A stretch of 47,296 nucleotides of DNA from a virus, in IMG/VR virus record IMGVR_UViG_3300027720_000011, positions 1 to 47,296 of that record; one strand, given 5' to 3'. Below, one piece after another: positions 17,897-28,008 of the stretch. Under the pieces are notes generated by a model. The model ran no database searches, was not told the DNA's origin, and saw only the letters and a list, made by a program, of their open reading frames with translations. How positions within the stretch are numbered: position 1 is the first letter of the stretch; every line of letters begins with the position of its first letter. The position numbers and the translations under genes were made by a program.

Positions 17897-17983
17897 CGGA
17901 ACGAGTAGGATTCGAACCCACGGATGGAATTACCCATCGGAAGTTTAGTAAACTTCTGCTTTAGACCACTCAGCCATCGTTCC
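17897..17983 (-). tRNA. tRNA-Ser (anticodon ACT)
   Basis: An 87-nt class II tRNA on the minus strand. Acceptor stem GGAACGA pairs with TCGTTCC, the D arm is GGCTGAGTGGTCTAAAGC, the anticodon arm is GAAGT-TTACTAA-ACTTC, the long variable arm is GATGG...CCATC, the T arm contains GTTCGAAT, and the discriminator is G. CCA is not encoded. The seven-base loop TTACTAA gives anticodon ACT, which reads serine AGU; bacteria normally use GCT. AGT codons are frequent in this AT-rich genome, so the tRNA probably supplements host supply. Confidence 0.85.
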
Positions 17984-18065: not shown

Positions 18066-18698
18066 ATGGGTGAGTTTACTGAAATTTTTGGGCCATTTTA
18101 CTGGAAAACTCATGTTATTGAAAATCAAGAAATTTTAGATAGATGTTTAGGTAAAATCAAAAATTATTCCGAAAAAAAACCACTAATTATCCCTACAGAT
18201 TGGGAATGTAATATCCATAGTAGTTTTAAAAGTAATGATCCAGATATGAAATTAGATACGCCTTGGCTATATCCTATCTATACAAGATATATAAATTTAT
18301 TTTTAGATGAATTCTTAGATAAAGCTGGAACAGCTAAGGTTTTTGACCCTTGGTATAACGTCTTTTCTTATGATCAATTTCAAGAGCCTCACGCACATTT
18401 TCCACATGATTTTTCTTTAGTGCATTATGTTTTATTTAATGAAAACGAACATTTACCGACTACATTTATAAATCCAAATGCAATTGCCGCAGAAGCTCAA
18501 AGAGCATTTCGTCCAGACTTAATCAGTAAAATTAATAAAAAAGATCCAAAAAAATCTTTTTATATGACTAATTATACTCCTATTGGAATTGGACAGGGGG
18601 ATTTAATCATATTTCCATCTTCATTAAGTCATTACGTCAAACAAAATAAATCAGATATAAAGCGTATAACTTTCACGCTTAATTTTAATGTAATCTAA
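18066..18698 (+). CDS. 2OG-Fe(II) oxygenase-like protein
   Basis: A 210-residue protein. The iron ligands are suggested by PHAHFPHDFSLVHYVLF (about 109-125, giving H and D) and by SSLSHYVKQN (about 187-196) with the 2-oxoglutarate-binding arginine in KRITFTLNF. This order matches the double-stranded beta-helix oxygenases common in cyanophages and other large phages. The substrate cannot be told; hydroxylation of a protein residue, sugar or base is possible. It ends in a 4-nt overlap with the convergent carbamoyltransferase gene. Confidence 0.7.
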   Translation: MGEFTEIFGPFYWKTHVIENQEILDRCLGKIKNYSEKKPLIIPTDWECNIHSSFKSNDPDMKLDTPWLYPIYTRYINLFLDEFLDKAGTAKVFDPWYNVFSYDQFQEPHAHFPHDFSLVHYVLFNENEHLPTTFINPNAIAAEAQRAFRPDLISKINKKDPKKSFYMTNYTPIGIGQGDLIIFPSSLSHYVKQNKSDIKRITFTLNFNVI

Positions 18699-20188
18699 TG
18701 TTTCTCAAATATCTCATTACCAATAACTAAATAGTTTAACTTCGTTGTTTCAAAGAAAATTTTAGCGTCTTTAATTGTCCCTACTAATGGTTTACCAGCT
18801 GAGTTCATGCTAGTATTCAATAGAAGTGGACAGCCAGTTAACCTATGAAACTCTTCAAGTAATATTCTGAATACTGGATTTTCATTCTTTAAAGTCTGAA
18901 CTCTACATGTATTGTCGATATGAGTTATTGATTCAACAGAATTATTTTTTACATTTGAGCTAAAAAGCATGTATGGATCTGAATCTATTTCAAAAAAATC
19001 GTCTTTATATTCGTATAAGATAGTAGCGCCAAAAGGTCTATAATTTTCTCTATTTTTTATTTTATTTATTAAATATTTACCATTTTTAATTCTTGGGTCT
19101 AAAAGAATAGATCTATTACCAAGAGCTCTTGGTCCAACTTCTCCGTTGCCTTGATACCATCCAATTGCATGACCTTGTGAAAGCAATAATGCAGACTTCT
19201 TGATAGTGTCCATATCTGGAATAGTTAATGGTGCTTCATCATTTTGAATATAGGGAAAATTATTTAATTCAAATGGATTAAGATTATTCTTTCTTCTTAA
19301 AAATTCTATTCCTCCGAGCGTTAAGCCATCGTCAGTACAATGAGGTGGTATTATAATATTTTTAAAGTGCTTTCTTAATTCAGTATTCCATAATACATTT
19401 TGAGCGATTCCTCCAGTAAAAGATATTAATTGGTCATCTTTCGCAAATTTTCTAAAAAACTCAACCAATAAATACCCTGTTTTTTTATGCAAATTCCTTA
19501 TCCAGTCCAGAGTTGATAGTCTTGCTATACTTTCATCATTAATAAATTCAATCCAATTATCAAAAGAAAACAATTCTTTAACATTTTCAATCGAATATTT
19601 ATCTAGATATTTTATAAAATTTTCAGAAATGTTTCCGTAAGATTGTAGACCCATAAGTTTTCCAGCGATATCGATTCTATGACTTGCCCGAATGCCTAAA
19701 AAATCTCCAGCTTCTGCCATTTCTATTCCTAGCGATCCATTATTTTTTAGTGATCCTTTTGCTATAATTTCGTCTTTATGAAAAACAGTCCAAGATTGAT
19801 CAAAATCTCCAAATCCATCCATGACTATGCTAACTTCTGGTTCTTTTCTGCTTATAGCCCATGTACTCAAACTATGGGCATAATGATGATTAATTCTCCA
19901 AGTTTTACAATTCAATTCTAAATGATCAAATGCAACTGCGTTCGAAAACGATTCGTCCTCTGCTGGTAAATTATAAATCCAAGGATCTACAATAATTGCA
20001 ACTTCATCTAAGTCATCCACATTTTGATTAAAAAGGTTTTGAAAATCAACTTTCCAGTTTAATAAATTATTAAATGCGTGATGTTTAACGCCTTTAATTC
20101 TTTCAGTTTTAAGATATTTTAACTCTTTACCATCAAAAAAACAAAAACTACTATCATGTTCACATAATCTTAGAGCAAGGAGTTTCAC
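18695..20188 (-). CDS. Carbamoyltransferase (NodU/TobZ family)
   Basis: A 497-residue enzyme transferring a carbamoyl group from carbamoyl phosphate through carbamoyl-adenylate. The N-terminal actin-like part has HHYAHSLSTWAI (about 101-112), VMDGFGDFDQSW, ISFTGGIAQNVLWNTELR (about 255-272); the C-terminal YrdC-like part has GEVGPRALGNRSILLDPR (about 349-366), NYRPFGATIL and CPLLLNTSMNSAGKPLVG. Full length for phage versions, slightly shorter than NodU. The acceptor may be a glycan or a modified nucleotide. It is last in the minus operon. Confidence 0.88.
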   Translation of the reverse strand: MKLLALRLCEHDSSFCFFDGKELKYLKTERIKGVKHHAFNNLLNWKVDFQNLFNQNVDDLDEVAIIVDPWIYNLPAEDESFSNAVAFDHLELNCKTWRINHHYAHSLSTWAISRKEPEVSIVMDGFGDFDQSWTVFHKDEIIAKGSLKNNGSLGIEMAEAGDFLGIRASHRIDIAGKLMGLQSYGNISENFIKYLDKYSIENVKELFSFDNWIEFINDESIARLSTLDWIRNLHKKTGYLLVEFFRKFAKDDQLISFTGGIAQNVLWNTELRKHFKNIIIPPHCTDDGLTLGGIEFLRRKNNLNPFELNNFPYIQNDEAPLTIPDMDTIKKSALLLSQGHAIGWYQGNGEVGPRALGNRSILLDPRIKNGKYLINKIKNRENYRPFGATILYEYKDDFFEIDSDPYMLFSSNVKNNSVESITHIDNTCRVQTLKNENPVFRILLEEFHRLTGCPLLLNTSMNSAGKPLVGTIKDAKIFFETTKLNYLVIGNEIFEKH

Positions 20189-21203: not shown

Positions 21204-21380
21204 CTATTTTGACTTAATTGAATATAGCTCTGGTTTTGTTGTTATCTTAGTCAAGTAATTTTTCGCATGAATTAATCCTTCTTTAGTGTGAGGAAAAACT
21301 CCGTATTGAAAATTATCTTTTTTTGAGATTAAAAGATAATATTTTTTCTTTTTGGGAGATTTAATTTTTCTTTTCTTCAT
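21204..21380 (-). CDS. Small basic hypothetical protein, 58 aa
   Basis: I take the ATG at 21380 (MKKRKIKSPKKKKYYLL), which overlaps the upstream gene by 20 nt; a start at 21413 would extend the overlap to 53 nt. Very lysine-rich at the start, then FQYGVFPHTKEGLIHAK. A nucleic-acid-binding role is possible from charge alone. Confidence 0.5.
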   Translation of the reverse strand: MKKRKIKSPKKKKYYLLISKKDNFQYGVFPHTKEGLIHAKNYLTKITTKPELYSIKSK

Positions 21381-21693
21381 TGGTAATATAAGCTCGTAAT
21401 TGCTCCCATTCATTCTTAGTGAAGCCAGTTCTACTATTTTCCGCTAAGTAAAGAGAGTTTCTTGTCCACCACTTATCTTCGTGAATGACTGAATCTTCTT
21501 CTATTTCATCCATCCATTCTATAACATATTTAGTTTTATCTATCCTAGATTTAGGCTCTGGTATTTGATCTACTTTGTCAAAATATATATTCATAAGTTC
21601 GTTTAATCTGGGATCGTCTTTGGATTTACCAAAAAAACTTGCAGTTTGATACAATCTCTCTTTAGCTTCTGCTCTATTTGGCCCTTGTTGCAT
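21361..21693 (-). CDS. Hypothetical protein, 110 aa
   Basis: A Trp/Asp-rich helical protein, with IEWMDEIEEDSVIHEDKWW and a C-terminus TKNEWEQLRAYIT. It overlaps the acyl carrier protein gene by 20 nt, which suggests coupled translation, but I see no motif linking it to carrier chemistry. Confidence 0.55.
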   Translation of the reverse strand: MQQGPNRAEAKERLYQTASFFGKSKDDPRLNELMNIYFDKVDQIPEPKSRIDKTKYVIEWMDEIEEDSVIHEDKWWTRNSLYLAENSRTGFTKNEWEQLRAYITNEEKKN

Positions 21694-21952
21694 CGTTGAT
21701 CTTCTCGTTTAGAAATTCTACAAATTCTCCGAAAGTTTTCATACTGTTCCGCATTTCTTCTATCTGTTTAGCGTTTTGGATAATCCATATATTGTAAATA
21801 TCTTCTATCTCAGAAGCTATTGATAGTAAAGCAAAAGAATCTAAATTTAAATCTGATAAAGAAGTATTATCATTTATATCTATTCCTTTTTGATCTTTTA
21901 ATAATTCATTTTTTATAAGCTCTTTGATCTTATCGGTATCTACTGTTTTCAT
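21674..21952 (-). CDS. Acyl carrier protein
   Basis: A 92-residue carrier protein. DLNLDSFALLSIASEIEDIY (about 34-53) matches the ACP signature D-S-L/F with S39 as the site for 4'-phosphopantetheine, followed by an acidic helix II (EIEDIYNI) that docks partner enzymes. ACPs are usually 75-85 residues; this one has a short extra tail. Its activating enzyme AcpS is in the same operon (24585-24893). It starts 12 nt after the PurA-like gene. The acyl or aminoacyl cargo cannot be told: no ketosynthase or adenylation domain lies in this window. Confidence 0.82.
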   Translation of the reverse strand: MKTVDTDKIKELIKNELLKDQKGIDINDNTSLSDLNLDSFALLSIASEIEDIYNIWIIQNAKQIEEMRNSMKTFGEFVEFLNEKINDATRAK

Positions 21953-21964
21953 ATTAGTATTATA

Positions 21965-22960
21965 TTAGATATATTCTTTATTACCAGAAAATATTATAGT
22001 GCAGTATTCTTTTAATGTATTTGATATATATTCTTTCATATTCACAAAATCATCAAACTTTATAAAATTTGGTTCTTCTTTAGGGTTATCGAATCTAATC
22101 TTAAATATTTTTAATTTTTCTAGAATATCACACTTGTTTATAACTAATTTTGTTGTGCCAGATTGTTTTATAGCATGCTCTAATTTAGGTAAATTTAGCC
22201 AGTTAACTATTCTTTTTCTTCCTGTGGTAGTCCCATACTCTTTCCCTAATTCTATTAATGTATCTAATTCTTTGTCTTCCCATAAAGACTCTGGAAATAA
22301 AGGATCAACTCCACTTTTAGTGTCATAAATCTTAGCTACCCCAATAATATCTCTTATCTTTTTAGGGCTAAAGCCTAAAGAGCAAGCGGAATAAGGTAAG
22401 GTTTCACTACTTGTAACATATGGATAATCCCCATGATTAATATCAAGCCAAAAGCTCTGAGCGCCTTCACAAAGAATATCACCACTTAATTCACCGTCCC
22501 AAATATATTTTGATTCCAAATAGTCTTTTGCTAATTTACCCGATCTTAACATTTTATCAGAGTAGCAAGGAGCAATTCCTTGACCAGTAGTACCAAGCTT
22601 GGGTTTTAAAAACTTAAGATCGTATTCTATATGGCGATGAGTTATGATATGAGCTTTGGGACTAACTTTGATCAAAGAAGTATCAAACCCTTCTTTTTGT
22701 AAGTACTCTATCTCATCAAAAAACTTATCAATATTGATAACGCAATTTGGACCAATAATTGATTTCTTATTGTGAAATACTCCAGAAGGAATAAGATGTG
22801 TTTTATATTTTTTATCATTTAAATAAACTGTATGACCCGCATTTGGTCCACCATTCCATCTGCACACGTAATCATAGTCCTTCGACAAAGCATTAGAGAT
22901 TTTTCCTTTCCCTTCATCTCCCCAGCATAATCCAAATATTATATCTACTCCACGAATCAT
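21965..22960 (-). CDS. Adenylosuccinate synthetase family enzyme (PurA/PurZ-like)
   Basis: A 331-residue member of the family that joins aspartate to a purine nucleotide with GTP (IMP to adenylosuccinate in PurA). Motifs: WGDEGKGK (13-20) with catalytic D15, NGGPNAGHT with H43, GTTGQGIAP (123-131), EGAQSFWLDINHGDYPYVTS (165-184), TTTGRKR (244-250). It is about 100 residues shorter than bacterial PurA, a size more like archaeal PurA and phage PurZ (which makes 2-aminoadenine precursors). In typical PurZ the catalytic Asp is replaced by Ser or Gly; here it is kept, favouring IMP as substrate. The GTP-base end is shortened (FSGNKEYI). Confidence 0.85.
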   Translation of the reverse strand: MIRGVDIIFGLCWGDEGKGKISNALSKDYDYVCRWNGGPNAGHTVYLNDKKYKTHLIPSGVFHNKKSIIGPNCVINIDKFFDEIEYLQKEGFDTSLIKVSPKAHIITHRHIEYDLKFLKPKLGTTGQGIAPCYSDKMLRSGKLAKDYLESKYIWDGELSGDILCEGAQSFWLDINHGDYPYVTSSETLPYSACSLGFSPKKIRDIIGVAKIYDTKSGVDPLFPESLWEDKELDTLIELGKEYGTTTGRKRIVNWLNLPKLEHAIKQSGTTKLVINKCDILEKLKIFKIRFDNPKEEPNFIKFDDFVNMKEYISNTLKEYCTIIFSGNKEYI

Positions 22961-23178
22961 TATTCGCAGTTATATAATCTACTTGGAGTCCTTACATCAA
23001 AGATAGATACATTCTCTTCCTTTTTGTCTGTTGAAACACACAGAGTGCTGTGATCTACTACTCTCGAAACTACTCCGCAATATCCATCTTGTGTGATAGG
23101 GTTGCTTATCACAAAGACTCTTTTACCAATCATTCTTCTTAAGATTGATGTTTTAGTTTTATTTAATGTTATATCCAT
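22960..23178 (-). CDS. Small hypothetical protein, 72 aa
   Basis: A beta-rich protein with ILRRMIGKRVFVISNP and GYCGVVSRVVDHSTLCVST, which looks like a small SH3- or Tudor-like barrel. Its stop codon shares its last base with the start of the PurA-like gene, so the pair is tightly coupled. Function unknown. Confidence 0.55.
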   Translation of the reverse strand: MDITLNKTKTSILRRMIGKRVFVISNPITQDGYCGVVSRVVDHSTLCVSTDKKEENVSIFDVRTPSRLYNCE

Positions 23179-23199
23179 ACTTATATATTATCTTAAATC

Positions 23200-23862
23200 T
23201 CAACAAAAGTCCAGACGTATTTTACCTTTTTTGTCGATTGTTACATAGCTACATTTGTCCTCACAAAAACTTCCGCAATTAACATACTTTCCAGAATTTT
23301 CTGGCATGTGAGTATGTCCACAAACAATTGAATCATAGGAATTTAAGTCTATATATTTTAGGGCATTTCTTTTTACATCTGAGCTTTTCTCAACAAAGTC
23401 GTTTGTTTTGTTTTTAAAGATCTTAAAGAATTCATCTGCAAAAGGAGTATATTTTCTAATTGTATAATATATCTTTATCACAATATTTGTTATAGATTTG
23501 TATTTCGTAAAGAATATGTCAAAGATATCTCCATGAACAACTAAAATTTTAAGCTCATCATATTTTAATACATAATCATTTTGGCACTTAAATCCTAAAA
23601 GGATGCTCATAAACTCTGCTTTTAAAAAGCAATGATTACCTATCAAGTATATTATATTGCATTTTTTTGAAAGTTTTCTTAATTTCGAAAGCACTTTCCA
23701 GTGCTCTTTTTTCAATCTATGAAGATTATGGTGATCGAACAAATCTCCAGCAATAATTATCCTCTTAGCTTTTATTTTTTTTCAGGTATTTAAAAGTTTA
23801 TTTGGATGACAATCTTTTGACCCTAAGTGAACGTCTGAAAAAATTAATGTATCTGTTTTCAT
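23200..23862 (-). pseudogene. Metallophosphoesterase interrupted by an in-frame TGA
   Basis: The full frame from the ATG at 23862 reads MKTDTLIFSDVHLGSKDCHP then LLNT-stop-KKIKAKRIIIAGDLFDHHN. All metal-binding motifs of calcineurin-like phosphoesterases of the LpxH type are present: SDVHLGS, GDLFD, GNHC (usually GNHD), VHGD and GHTHMP. The TGA at codon 27 (about 23782-23784) splits them. If one A were added to the AAA run before it and one removed from the run of eight A after it, the frame would read LLKYLKKIK, a good family match, so two indel errors or a real lesion are both possible. The 180-residue remainder from 23742 alone lacks the first metal site. Confidence 0.75.
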
Positions 23863-23863
23863 A

Positions 23864-24592
23864 TTAAAACGTTATGTGGTTATTAGTTGAGTTCTTTAAA
23901 ACTTCACGATTATATACTTCTCGAGTTAAATTATTTTTATCAGATTCAATTTTCAGTTTTGGCAAAAACTTTCTCTGAATTGGTATTAATTGAGATATTG
24001 GTGTTCCTGCTCTTAAGATTTCTGTCCCTTCTAAAATGTTCCAAAACATAATAACATTAATCTGTCTACTTTTTAATGGGTCTATTACTCCTTCTATCAC
24101 TGTAAATCGATGCTCTCCAAAAAAACTAGGATGTGTTTGTATAAAACAATAATCTGTAGATCCAATCATCCAAGGAGTATTTATTTTTAATACAGTTTTA
24201 AGTGCATTCTCTGGAGTGTTGATAAAATCTGAATATTGATATTTTTTAAAATGCGAAACCATATTATTATCATCGACTGGTGTTGGCAACAATTCGGCTA
24301 TGTAAGAAGTCCCATCGCCAGTGGTAGAAATCCTAATGTCTCTATGCAACCTAATCAAGTACCCACAAGAAATCATATCTCTTATTCCATCGCATTTTGC
24401 GGTGTTTCTGTGCTTTTGAAATGGACAACTTACATTTTTCTCTTGTCTTATCTGATGTTGTTGATATTCCTCTTTGCATTTTTTTAAAAAAGGCCTTTGT
24501 ATATCCTTCGAATATACAGGAGGCCAAGCATTTATAAATGCTTCTTGTGAGCATATAAAACTAACTTCTTTTCTTTTAAAAAAATTAAACAT
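23864..24592 (-). CDS. Conserved phage protein, DUF6065-like
   Basis: A 242-residue protein of probable beta-jelly-roll type. The middle has LKINTPWMIGSTDYCFIQTHP (in two parts, about 143-163), then EHRFTVIEGVIDPLK and ILRAGTPISQLIPIQR (about 195-210). I recall the order P-W-x-I-x-T-x-x-x-Y, Q-P, G-V/I-V-D and G-T-P-I-x-Q-x-I-P-x-x-R from cyanophage and other phage proteins with hydroxylase genes close by, named DUF6065; I am not certain of the match. The N-terminus holds CPFQKH and a Cys pair. No known activity. It overlaps acpS by 8 nt. Confidence 0.5.
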   Translation of the reverse strand: MFNFFKRKEVSFICSQEAFINAWPPVYSKDIQRPFLKKCKEEYQQHQIRQEKNVSCPFQKHRNTAKCDGIRDMISCGYLIRLHRDIRISTTGDGTSYIAELLPTPVDDNNMVSHFKKYQYSDFINTPENALKTVLKINTPWMIGSTDYCFIQTHPSFFGEHRFTVIEGVIDPLKSRQINVIMFWNILEGTEILRAGTPISQLIPIQRKFLPKLKIESDKNNLTREVYNREVLKNSTNNHITF

Positions 24593-24893
24593 TGTTAAAA
24601 ACTATGGCTGTAGCGTACTCTTTTTCATGACTTATTGAAACCATAGCTTTGCTTTTCTTACCTTCAATGTAAATTGCTGGTTTACTATCGGTAGTTAAGA
24701 TTTCAATGTCTCTATTTGCATATAATATTCCAGCTTTAAAAGCCGCCTCTTTAGCGGCCCATTTACCAGCTAGTTTTTGATACATATTCGACTTTGTAGT
24801 TTCTGCGATTTCTTTTTCTGAGAAAATTTTGTTAATAAAAGATGATTTACCATCTTCTAATCTTTTTATTTTTATAATATCTATACCAATCAT
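24585..24893 (-). CDS. acpS: Holo-[acyl-carrier-protein] synthase
   Basis: A 102-residue phosphopantetheinyl transferase of the AcpS type (bacterial enzymes about 120). MIGIDIIKIKRLED carries the metal-binding D5, FSEKEIAE follows, and AGKWAAKEAAFKAG gives the second metal ligand (E49) and catalytic lysines; ISHEKEYATAIV completes the fold. It transfers 4'-phosphopantetheine from CoA to ACP; the obvious partner is the ACP gene three genes downstream. It overlaps the IMPDH-like gene by ATGA. Confidence 0.88.
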   Translation of the reverse strand: MIGIDIIKIKRLEDGKSSFINKIFSEKEIAETTKSNMYQKLAGKWAAKEAAFKAGILYANRDIEILTTDSKPAIYIEGKKSKAMVSISHEKEYATAIVFNNV

Positions 24894-26002
24894 ATAGTCT
24901 TTCCATGTGCAAAAGCTTCGTACATATTATTTGCCGTGGGAGATATGACTTTTATTTTATTCTCCCAAATTCCTCCACGCATTTCTTCTACAGTTCTAAA
25001 TCCAAGATAACTCATCGCGCTTCTTAAACCGTTAGCATAATCATAAACTACGTCTTCGATTGTCTTATCTTTTGTTAAAGGTATCATTACCTTGTCTCCT
25101 TCAACAAATAAATTCTTTTTGCTGCCATCGTAAAGTTCATAATCTTCGACTACATCTTTGCTTGCCATACCTCGATATGAAGCGAATAATTGACCGCCCT
25201 TTTCTATAATGTTTTCTTCGTCTACCACATCTGCTAAACCAGCAAAAATTCTGCCACAGATAACTCCGTCTGCTCCACTAGCTATAGCTTTTACTAAATC
25301 TCTGGGATTTCTTATGCCACCATCAGCAAGAATACTAGGTCTATTTTCTTCTTTAGGATTTTCTTGACGAAAATGATCTGCATTTGCTAATTGATAATTT
25401 CTTATAGCTTCCCAAGCATAAGATAATCCTGTAACACTAGGGCATCCAATCCCAGTCTTGATCTGCGTCAAGCACATACTTCCTGGACCAATTAAATGTC
25501 TAAAACCGTCTGCCTTTAAGTTAGCCAATCTATAGACGCTAGATTTAGTTAATGTGTTTCCTACTATAATGTCCTGTTTATAATTGGATTGCTTGTACCA
25601 AATTAAAAAATCTTCTACGCTTTTTGCAAGACCATTTGCTGTATCTAAAAAAAATACATCAGTATACATGTTTAACAAACTCAACCTATACTCACAATCT
25701 TTTAATCCTATAGCGGATATACAAAATCCACTCTCATCTTTGATTTTTTTAGCTTTTATAGTTTGATCTTCTACTTTCATGAATCTGTGAAGAACTCCTG
25801 CTGCTCCAATCTTATTCATCTTAATGCAAGATTTCACAGATGAAACTGTGTCCATTGGAGACAATATAATTGGAATATCTATATATTTATTTTTAGAAAT
25901 TTTAGTGATTGTACTGACTTCTTTTCTGGAAGATATATCTGAAAAGTTTGGTAGCAAACATATGTCGTCATATCCTAACCCAGTGTCTATTTGTATTTTC
26001 AT
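24890..26002 (-). CDS. IMP dehydrogenase / GMP reductase family enzyme
   Basis: A 370-residue TIM barrel without CBS domains. GYDDICLLP (10-18), SPMDTV (48-53), IGPGSMCLTQ (171-180) with catalytic C177, ADGGI (226-230) and YRGMAS (276-281) are the family signatures. Two features mix the subfamilies: KTG after the catalytic loop is GMP-reductase-like, while YRGM and the length fit IMPDH; the R-Y dyad of the IMPDH flap is not visible. The reaction (IMP to XMP, or GMP to IMP) is therefore open. Either way it acts on the same IMP pool as the PurA-like enzyme in this operon. Confidence 0.82.
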   Translation of the reverse strand: MKIQIDTGLGYDDICLLPNFSDISSRKEVSTITKISKNKYIDIPIILSPMDTVSSVKSCIKMNKIGAAGVLHRFMKVEDQTIKAKKIKDESGFCISAIGLKDCEYRLSLLNMYTDVFFLDTANGLAKSVEDFLIWYKQSNYKQDIIVGNTLTKSSVYRLANLKADGFRHLIGPGSMCLTQIKTGIGCPSVTGLSYAWEAIRNYQLANADHFRQENPKEENRPSILADGGIRNPRDLVKAIASGADGVICGRIFAGLADVVDEENIIEKGGQLFASYRGMASKDVVEDYELYDGSKKNLFVEGDKVMIPLTKDKTIEDVVYDYANGLRSAMSYLGFRTVEEMRGGIWENKIKVISPTANNMYEAFAHGKTI

Positions 26003-27170: not shown

Positions 27171-27587
27171 TTAGTTAAAAGTAAAAGAAGTGATAGGAAT
27201 TAGTATAATATTGGCTATCTTGTCTCCTACATAGATATCAATCTTGGATCTTTCTCCTAAAAATCTTTCGTTGTCTGTCATCATAAATGGGCTCTTAGGT
27301 ATATTAACATTAGTTACCATTAATAACAACTCTTTTTTATCTTGAGGAAGAATCAATTCTTGAAATGCGTACAAGCCATTTCTAATATAAGACTCTTTTC
27401 TTGGCAAAATTATACCAAAATGACCTTTAGGTATTTCTATCTCTATGAAAGTCTTTATAGCTTTTCTTTCTCCTGGAAACAAGTAACATCTTTCACCGCT
27501 AGATATGCTATATAAACCATCTTCGTATTCCTGTGAGGGCTTTTTGCCCTTATCGTGAAGGCTTTTAAATTTAATTTCTTGATTCAT
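27171..27587 (-). CDS. dUTPase-fold protein, catalytic residues not conserved
   Basis: A 138-residue protein with the strand order of trimeric dUTPases/dCTP deaminases: EDGLYSISSGERCYLFPGER (motif 1 region), IEIPKGHFGIILPRKESY (motif 2; R-S-S is replaced by R-K-E), ELILPQDKKELLLMVTN (motif 3; the catalytic Asp of I-D is a Leu) and VGDKIANIILIP (motif 4, good). Motif 5 is absent. It overlaps the dCMP deaminase gene by 17 nt, the classic partner of dUTPase, but the missing Asp argues against dUTP hydrolysis. A regulatory or nucleotide-binding role is possible. Confidence 0.6.
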   Translation of the reverse strand: MNQEIKFKSLHDKGKKPSQEYEDGLYSISSGERCYLFPGERKAIKTFIEIEIPKGHFGIILPRKESYIRNGLYAFQELILPQDKKELLLMVTNVNIPKSPFMMTDNERFLGERSKIDIYVGDKIANIILIPITSFTFN

Positions 27588-28008
27588 ATCTTATCAATTC
27601 TATATTGTGAAATTCAAAAATCTTGCAAGCTAATGAATCATTCAAATAGTCCTCTGAATATATTACTTTTTGTATTCCATAAGAAGCTATATTCATGGCA
27701 CAACAAGAGCATGGCAAAAGAGTTGAAGCTAAAATATATGGATTCTGATGTCTAGATATGCATGATAACGCGTTCGCTTCTGCATGAATTATGTAATTTC
27801 TTCTATGATCTCTATCTAACCAAAAATCTTTATCTTCTTTGTGTTTAGAGCGAAGACCATTGTACCCGACACTTAAAACCCTGCCATCCCTGTCTAAAAT
27901 ACATACTCCAACTTTTTTGTAGGGATCTTCTGATCTTTCCTTTACTGTATTAGATATGCTCATAGCCATATCTTCAAAAGATATTCTGTTCATGCTTTTT
28001 TTAGACAA
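27571..28008 (-). CDS. dCMP deaminase
   Basis: A 145-residue zinc enzyme converting dCMP to dUMP for dTTP synthesis. Zinc motifs: HAEAN (75-79, with catalytic E77) and PCSCC (99-103, C100 and C103 as ligands). DPYKKVGVCILDRDG and GYNG are typical of the family. It is the first gene of the minus operon, behind a good sigma70-like promoter (28061-28089). Confidence 0.88.
   Translation of the reverse strand: MSKKSMNRISFEDMAMSISNTVKERSEDPYKKVGVCILDRDGRVLSVGYNGLRSKHKEDKDFWLDRDHRRNYIIHAEANALSCISRHQNPYILASTLLPCSCCAMNIASYGIQKVIYSEDYLNDSLACKIFEFHNIELIRYESRN

Follow-up and report, generated by a model that had tools for sequence, protein, structure and literature searches.

A candidate self-activated carrier protein module in a lineage of T4-like phages

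The window analyzed here is a whole linear viral record of 47,296 bases (IMG/VR record IMGVR_UViG_3300027720_000011), probably from a T4-like lytic phage, as judged from its genes for rIIA, rIIB, the terminase large subunit, DNA ligase, a PhoH-like protein and NrdA. Its minus strand encodes an acyl carrier protein (ACP; 92 residues, 21674–21952), an AcpS-type 4'-phosphopantetheinyl transferase (PPTase; 102 residues, 24585–24893) and g110, a small, all-helical predicted protein (21361–21693). The best explanation as a whole, to which we give about an even chance, is that AcpS, ACP and g110 constitute a self-contained, probably orthogonal carrier module of a T4-like lytic lineage.

The window ACP matches the Pfam PP-binding family (PF00550; E 6.6e-5, 23.5 bits, cut-off 20.8), a cut-off passed by the ACPs of 5 of 11 relatives, with the remaining ones scoring below it. 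In its attachment site, D38-S39-F40, the first two residues are invariant among nine aligned sequences. The AlphaFold model (predicted local distance difference test, pLDDT, 81) has the four-helix ACP fold, and its top Foldseek matches are ACP structures, with probabilities up to 1.00, template modeling (TM) scores on the target of about 0.6–0.7 and E values of 0.004–0.08. A sequence-only reading of the window had proposed an ACP with a D-S-F site at S39, an identification that the Pfam match, the invariant D38-S39 and the predicted fold support.

The putative activating enzyme is equally recognizable. It matches Pfam ACPS (PF01648; E 6.9e-12, 45.8 bits, cut-off 25) and passes the NCBIfam model TIGR00556 (60.3, cut-off 45.35), while missing the narrower TIGR00516 (41.5, cut-off 59.8). 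Its profile matches solved AcpS structures (1f80 among them) along the entire length, and the catalytic residues D5, E49, K53 and H89 are invariant in 11 sequences; the full-length match and these residues argue for a complete AcpS in the operon, as proposed earlier. The enzyme resembles Bacillus subtilis AcpS (PDB 1f80, a group I PPTase) over its full length and in all catalytic residues, but it has some 20 residues fewer and is gapped in the region following the conserved Arg, which we take to be where the B. subtilis enzyme contacts ACP.

The two genes travel together. We scanned 2.9 million viral contigs of IMG/VR with AcpS and ACP queries, as single sequences and as alignments, and both query types found AcpS in 12 contigs beside the window and ACP in 11 of those 12; the twelfth ends inside PurA, so the ACP site is not covered. 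Whole-record domain searches placed both genes in the window and in all 11 contigs that span both sites, which confirms the co-occurrence on which the sequence-only reading had made its case depend. The same searches found neither gene in 35 relatives (41–177 kb) sharing the PurA-like and/or IMPDH-like genes, of which one (91 kb, locus L097) breaks off in the final bases of the IMPDH-like gene and is uninformative rather than negative. Contigs L095, L096 and L097, from different samples, all end at the same place in those final bases, at an ATGA where AcpS begins in relatives.

The carriers belong to a group of uncultivated, mostly T4-like freshwater viruses that infect bacteria, and are essentially one phage lineage; their dNMP kinases are at least 82% identical to one another and about 50% or less identical to those outside. 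Gene order within the lineage is steady: AcpS lies within a few bp after the IMPDH-like gene in all relatives but one (about 1.7 kb between), ACP follows PurA in all ACP-bearing relatives, and the order PurA/ACP/g110 is stable. ACP, AcpS and g110 are all under purifying selection (dN/dS, the ratio of nonsynonymous to synonymous substitution rates, about 0.04–0.23; ACP 0.04–0.13). Restriction to a single lineage, together with a neighboring phosphoesterase gene that is decaying in the window, would suit functionless passengers acquired from a host and now in decay. The selection test contradicts this, as do the invariant catalytic residues and the retention of both genes while identity within the lineage drops to 56% (AcpS) and 45% (ACP), and we consider passengers very improbable.

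What sets the carrier apart is its recognition helix. Helix II positions D38, E41 and M44 (E. coli numbering) are docking contacts in AcpS-ACP and FAS-ACP complexes (FAS, fatty-acid synthesis), and they are replaced by A/S, S and S in 12 of 12 ACPs of the clade. The window ACP likewise falls far short of the FAS-type ACP models (TIGR00517, 25.3 against 70.45 bits; NF002150, 33.3 against 66 bits). The clade ACPs thus share fold and D-S motif with E. coli AcpP and specialized bacterial ACPs but differ in the recognition helix, in a much lower negative charge (net −3 to −7, compared with −15 in E. coli AcpP) and in having g110 as a partner gene.

These features bear directly on the suggestion that the phage ACP feeds host synthesis. 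As an auxiliary metabolic gene it could supply fatty-acid, phospholipid or lipid A synthesis, with AcpS preventing the build-up of toxic apo-ACP. In keeping with this, almost all PDB profile matches of the ACP are ordinary ACPs, FAS types included, and other phages carry lone FAS-like ACPs (PMC8224337, PMC7760394). The hijack of host fatty-acid or lipid A synthesis put forward by the sequence-only reading is nevertheless weakened, though possible, because the ACP is without the three FAS recognition-helix residues; its low charge and its scores far under the NCBIfam cut-offs also speak against it, and we regard it as unlikely. The nearby phosphoesterase, which is only weakly LpxH-like, might seem to favor such a role; a lipid A function by way of this gene was rejected, since phages that lack ACP have the gene as well, and the window copy is interrupted.

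Carrier proteins in other phages give a second point of reference. In the literature, phage ACPs figure as rare auxiliary genes whose role is unclear (PMC5463345, PMC7760394, PMC10152775, PMC8224337). Lone ACPs occur in Erythrobacter phage R6L, Pseudomonas phage pf16, Brevundimonas phage Bajun and Olleya phage Harreka_1, and further in Eneladusvirus jumbo phages, cyanophages and Rhodobacteraceae prophages, mostly with no ketosynthase or adenylation partners reported; three of the Rhodobacteraceae prophages carry fabG-acpP-fabF (PMC8224337). These are phage carrier proteins like that of the window, but all ten lone ACPs of isolated phages that we compared keep D38, E41 and M44, as E. coli AcpP does, and a PF01648 protein is absent from all ten whole records, whereas the window clade combines an altered helix with AcpS and g110. 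Several lone phage ACPs are 163–186 residues long with C-terminal extensions (L169 from Vibrio phage 277E43-1, L173 from Vibrio phage P018-4 and L164 from pf16), and in Vibrio phage 277E43-1 the attachment serine is replaced by N.

No match in 50,697 phage records was a convincing phage AcpS; the search there did not extend to Sfp-type transferases. The only annotated match, in Microcystis phage MaAM05 (L184, MW495066.1), has secDF and smc/scpAB genes around it and resembles bacterial DNA, and unannotated matches in Listeria, Staphylococcus and Enterococcus "phage" records (OR84xxxx) are probably host DNA; both were set aside. No published phage ACP–AcpS pair turned up in the literature covered, outside which most subscription journals lie. 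The earlier statement that no such phage system had been described therefore holds for the pair, within the literature and records searched, while lone phage ACPs had already been described.

The third member of the proposed module is g110. In the window it overlaps ACP by 20 bp. It lies directly 3' of ACP in 11 of 11 ACP contigs, divergent 81-residue forms included, and is found in no locus that lacks ACP. Its AlphaFold model is all-helical (pLDDT 78), and searches of Pfam, PHROG, PADLOC, PDB folds and viral folds gave no match; the PADLOC defense models matched none of the six proteins tested, g110 among them. Comparison of close relatives separates its history from that of AcpS. Between contigs G002 and G004, PurA (96%), the phosphoesterase (97%) and AcpS (93%) are nearly identical, but ACP (44%) and g110 (31%) are not; between G004 and G009, ACP (99%) and g110 (97%) are close and AcpS has fallen to 76%. 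ACP and g110 were replaced jointly in one branch, and AcpS changes independently. The joint change points to a partnership and is suggestive rather than proof, because the two genes adjoin.

From these observations we propose the following course of events. The phage AcpS would move 4'-phosphopantetheine from coenzyme A onto S39 of the phage ACP, a modification that the sequences make very likely. The ACP appears to have lost, through the change of D38, E41 and M44 to A/S, S and S, the docking residues used by host FAS enzymes and by host AcpS; with helix II so altered, we infer that it would be a poor substrate for both, and so would travel with its own activator. The resulting holo-ACP would probably be largely insulated from host fatty-acid synthesis. 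It would then act with g110, encoded directly behind the ACP and exchanged together with it. At somewhat less than an even chance, the ACP/g110 pair may bind and redirect a host protein that depends on ACP or is regulated by it, building no lipid alone. More tentatively still, and with some doubt, we suggest an orthogonal viral system, in which the ACP activated by the phage AcpS would go unread by host enzymes, and holo- or acyl-ACP jointly with g110 would be an effector acting on host physiology.

Several points weigh against this proposal. The activity of the module is predicted from sequence, as is the partner role of g110, a protein without a known fold match. The co-occurrence of ACP and AcpS comes from one lineage and not from 12 independent events; since the carriers are essentially a single lineage, the counts are not independent gains. 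The joint replacement of ACP and g110, which adjoin or overlap, may reflect their distance only. AcpS stayed 93% identical while ACP fell to 44%, so recognition between them is not finely tuned. The lone-ACP set, having been retrieved by an E. coli AcpP query, is biased toward helices of the FAS-like kind. In net charge the two sets meet, one lone phage ACP standing at −7. Synthetic partner enzymes could also lie elsewhere in these genomes, as the contigs are fragments.

This last point underlies an alternative in which an acyl or aminoacyl group borne by the ACP is destined for a product (a base modification, a lipid, a small molecule or a modification of a virion protein) made by phage enzymes encoded off the contig. 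The ACP-bearing contigs are 20–47 kb long and relatives reach at least 177 kb, and in Eneladusvirus phages mass spectrometry identified an ACP among the phage proteins (PMC7760394). The window itself holds a 2-oxoglutarate (2OG)-Fe(II) oxygenase gene and a NodU-type carbamoyltransferase gene, adjacent on opposite strands at 18066–20188, which might take part in such a synthesis; of the relatives, only G001 and G006 share this pair with the window. Ketosynthase (PF00109), AMP-binding (PF00501) and 4HBT hot-dog thioesterase (PF03061) domains are absent from all 13 contigs, that is, the window and 12 relatives, all of them fragments, so that the earlier remark that no ketosynthase or adenylation enzyme is visible extends to the relatives. 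We think off-contig biosynthesis improbable, on a level with the supply of host lipid synthesis.

The genes around the proposed module are a different matter. From 21361 to 26002 on the minus strand, the order is IMPDH-like, AcpS, phrog_7084, phosphoesterase, a 72-residue open reading frame (ORF), PurA-like, ACP and g110, spaced mostly by overlaps and short gaps: the IMPDH-like gene overlaps AcpS by 4 bp, AcpS overlaps the next ORF by 8 bp, and 12 bp separate the PurA-like gene from ACP. These figures agree with the tightly packed operon of the sequence-only reading, which placed ACP and AcpS three genes apart; the actual count between them is four ORFs, one of them interrupted.

The PurA-like protein (adenylosuccinate synthetase; 331 residues, 21965–22960) and the IMPDH/GMP reductase-like enzyme (370 residues, 24890–26002) are what they had been taken for, matching PF00709 (E 2.6e-83) and PF00478 (E 2.6e-61), respectively. 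The PurA-like protein scores below both the PurA and the PurZ equivalog cut-offs (105.9 against 300 bits for the PurZ model NF038379), with the PurA models higher; it is a phage PurA-family ligase, as in PurZ phages with Z (diaminopurine) genomes, but differs from theirs in falling below the PurZ cut-off. Aligned with GuaB and with the GMP reductase GuaC, the IMPDH-like protein shows the KTG motif and shortened flap of GuaC and not the Arg-Tyr flap dyad of GuaB. It has no CBS domain, and its overall profile scores favor IMPDH. Together the two enzymes would convert GMP to IMP and IMP to adenylosuccinate, a possible guanine-to-adenine nucleotide route for AT-rich phage DNA that is common to dozens of uncultivated phage contigs. 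With the dCMP deaminase (27571–28008) and dUTPase-like genes near the purine pair, such a route would suit phage genomes whose GC content is 28–32%.

Could the carrier work in this pathway, with the PurA-like ligase transferring an acyl or aminoacyl group to a nucleotide? In this lineage ACP always adjoins PurA, and AcpS nearly always the IMPDH-like gene. Against this, many relatives that have neither ACP nor AcpS possess PurA (as much as 83% identical) and the IMPDH-like gene (as much as 84%), and it is established biochemistry that adenylosuccinate synthetases work on aspartate in its free form, with GTP. Because the purine pair is so widespread without the carrier genes, its link to ACP is incidental; the functional tie suggested by the sequence-only reading is not upheld, a purine-linked role was rejected as the principal explanation and we hold it to be highly unlikely. 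The purine neighbors serve a function separate from the carrier module. In a tree of the IMPDH-like protein the ACP carriers do not form one clade (at least three changes), from which we infer movement of this gene between lineages; the gain of ACP and AcpS was not dated from this tree.

Among the remaining genes of the operon, two are variable passengers, the phrog_7084 gene and the phosphoesterase gene. The protein at 23864–24592, labeled DUF6065-like at first, has no DUF6065 match in Pfam even at E ≤ 1, so that identity was rejected; it belongs to phrog_7084, and its gene is missing from most ACP-bearing relatives and located elsewhere in one. In several Synechococcus cyanophages, phrog_7084 homologs adjoin a tryptophan halogenase gene. 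The LpxH-like calcineurin phosphoesterase (window 23200–23860, minus strand; listed ORF 23200–23742) is broken by an in-frame stop close to the 5' end, the ORF being intact in relatives; either the gene has recently become a pseudogene or the sequence is in error. The 72-residue ORF between it and the PurA-like gene (22960–23178) is also found in some phages without ACP. The phosphoesterase, phrog_7084, carbamoyltransferase and 2OG oxygenase genes come and go among relatives.

As to the host, a scan of a genome collection with the window PurA protein gave only distant bacterial PurA. A Shine-Dalgarno-like motif precedes only 5 of the 45 window genes, which is unusual for a T4-like phage; this scarcity hints at a Bacteroidota-type host and proves nothing. 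ARAGORN places a tRNA-Ser with anticodon ACT at 17897–17983 on the minus strand, an unusual choice for AGY codons.

If the orthogonal effector system suggested above is real, it would amount to a takeover of the host through phosphopantetheine chemistry, a route undescribed for phages. Reports of lone phage ACPs have recurred with no explanation offered, and this lineage provides a defined three-gene unit for testing, with which it can be asked directly if phage ACPs supply the lipid synthesis of the host or act as regulators. A naturally insulated AcpS–ACP pair would, in addition, serve as a tool for labeling and synthetic biology.

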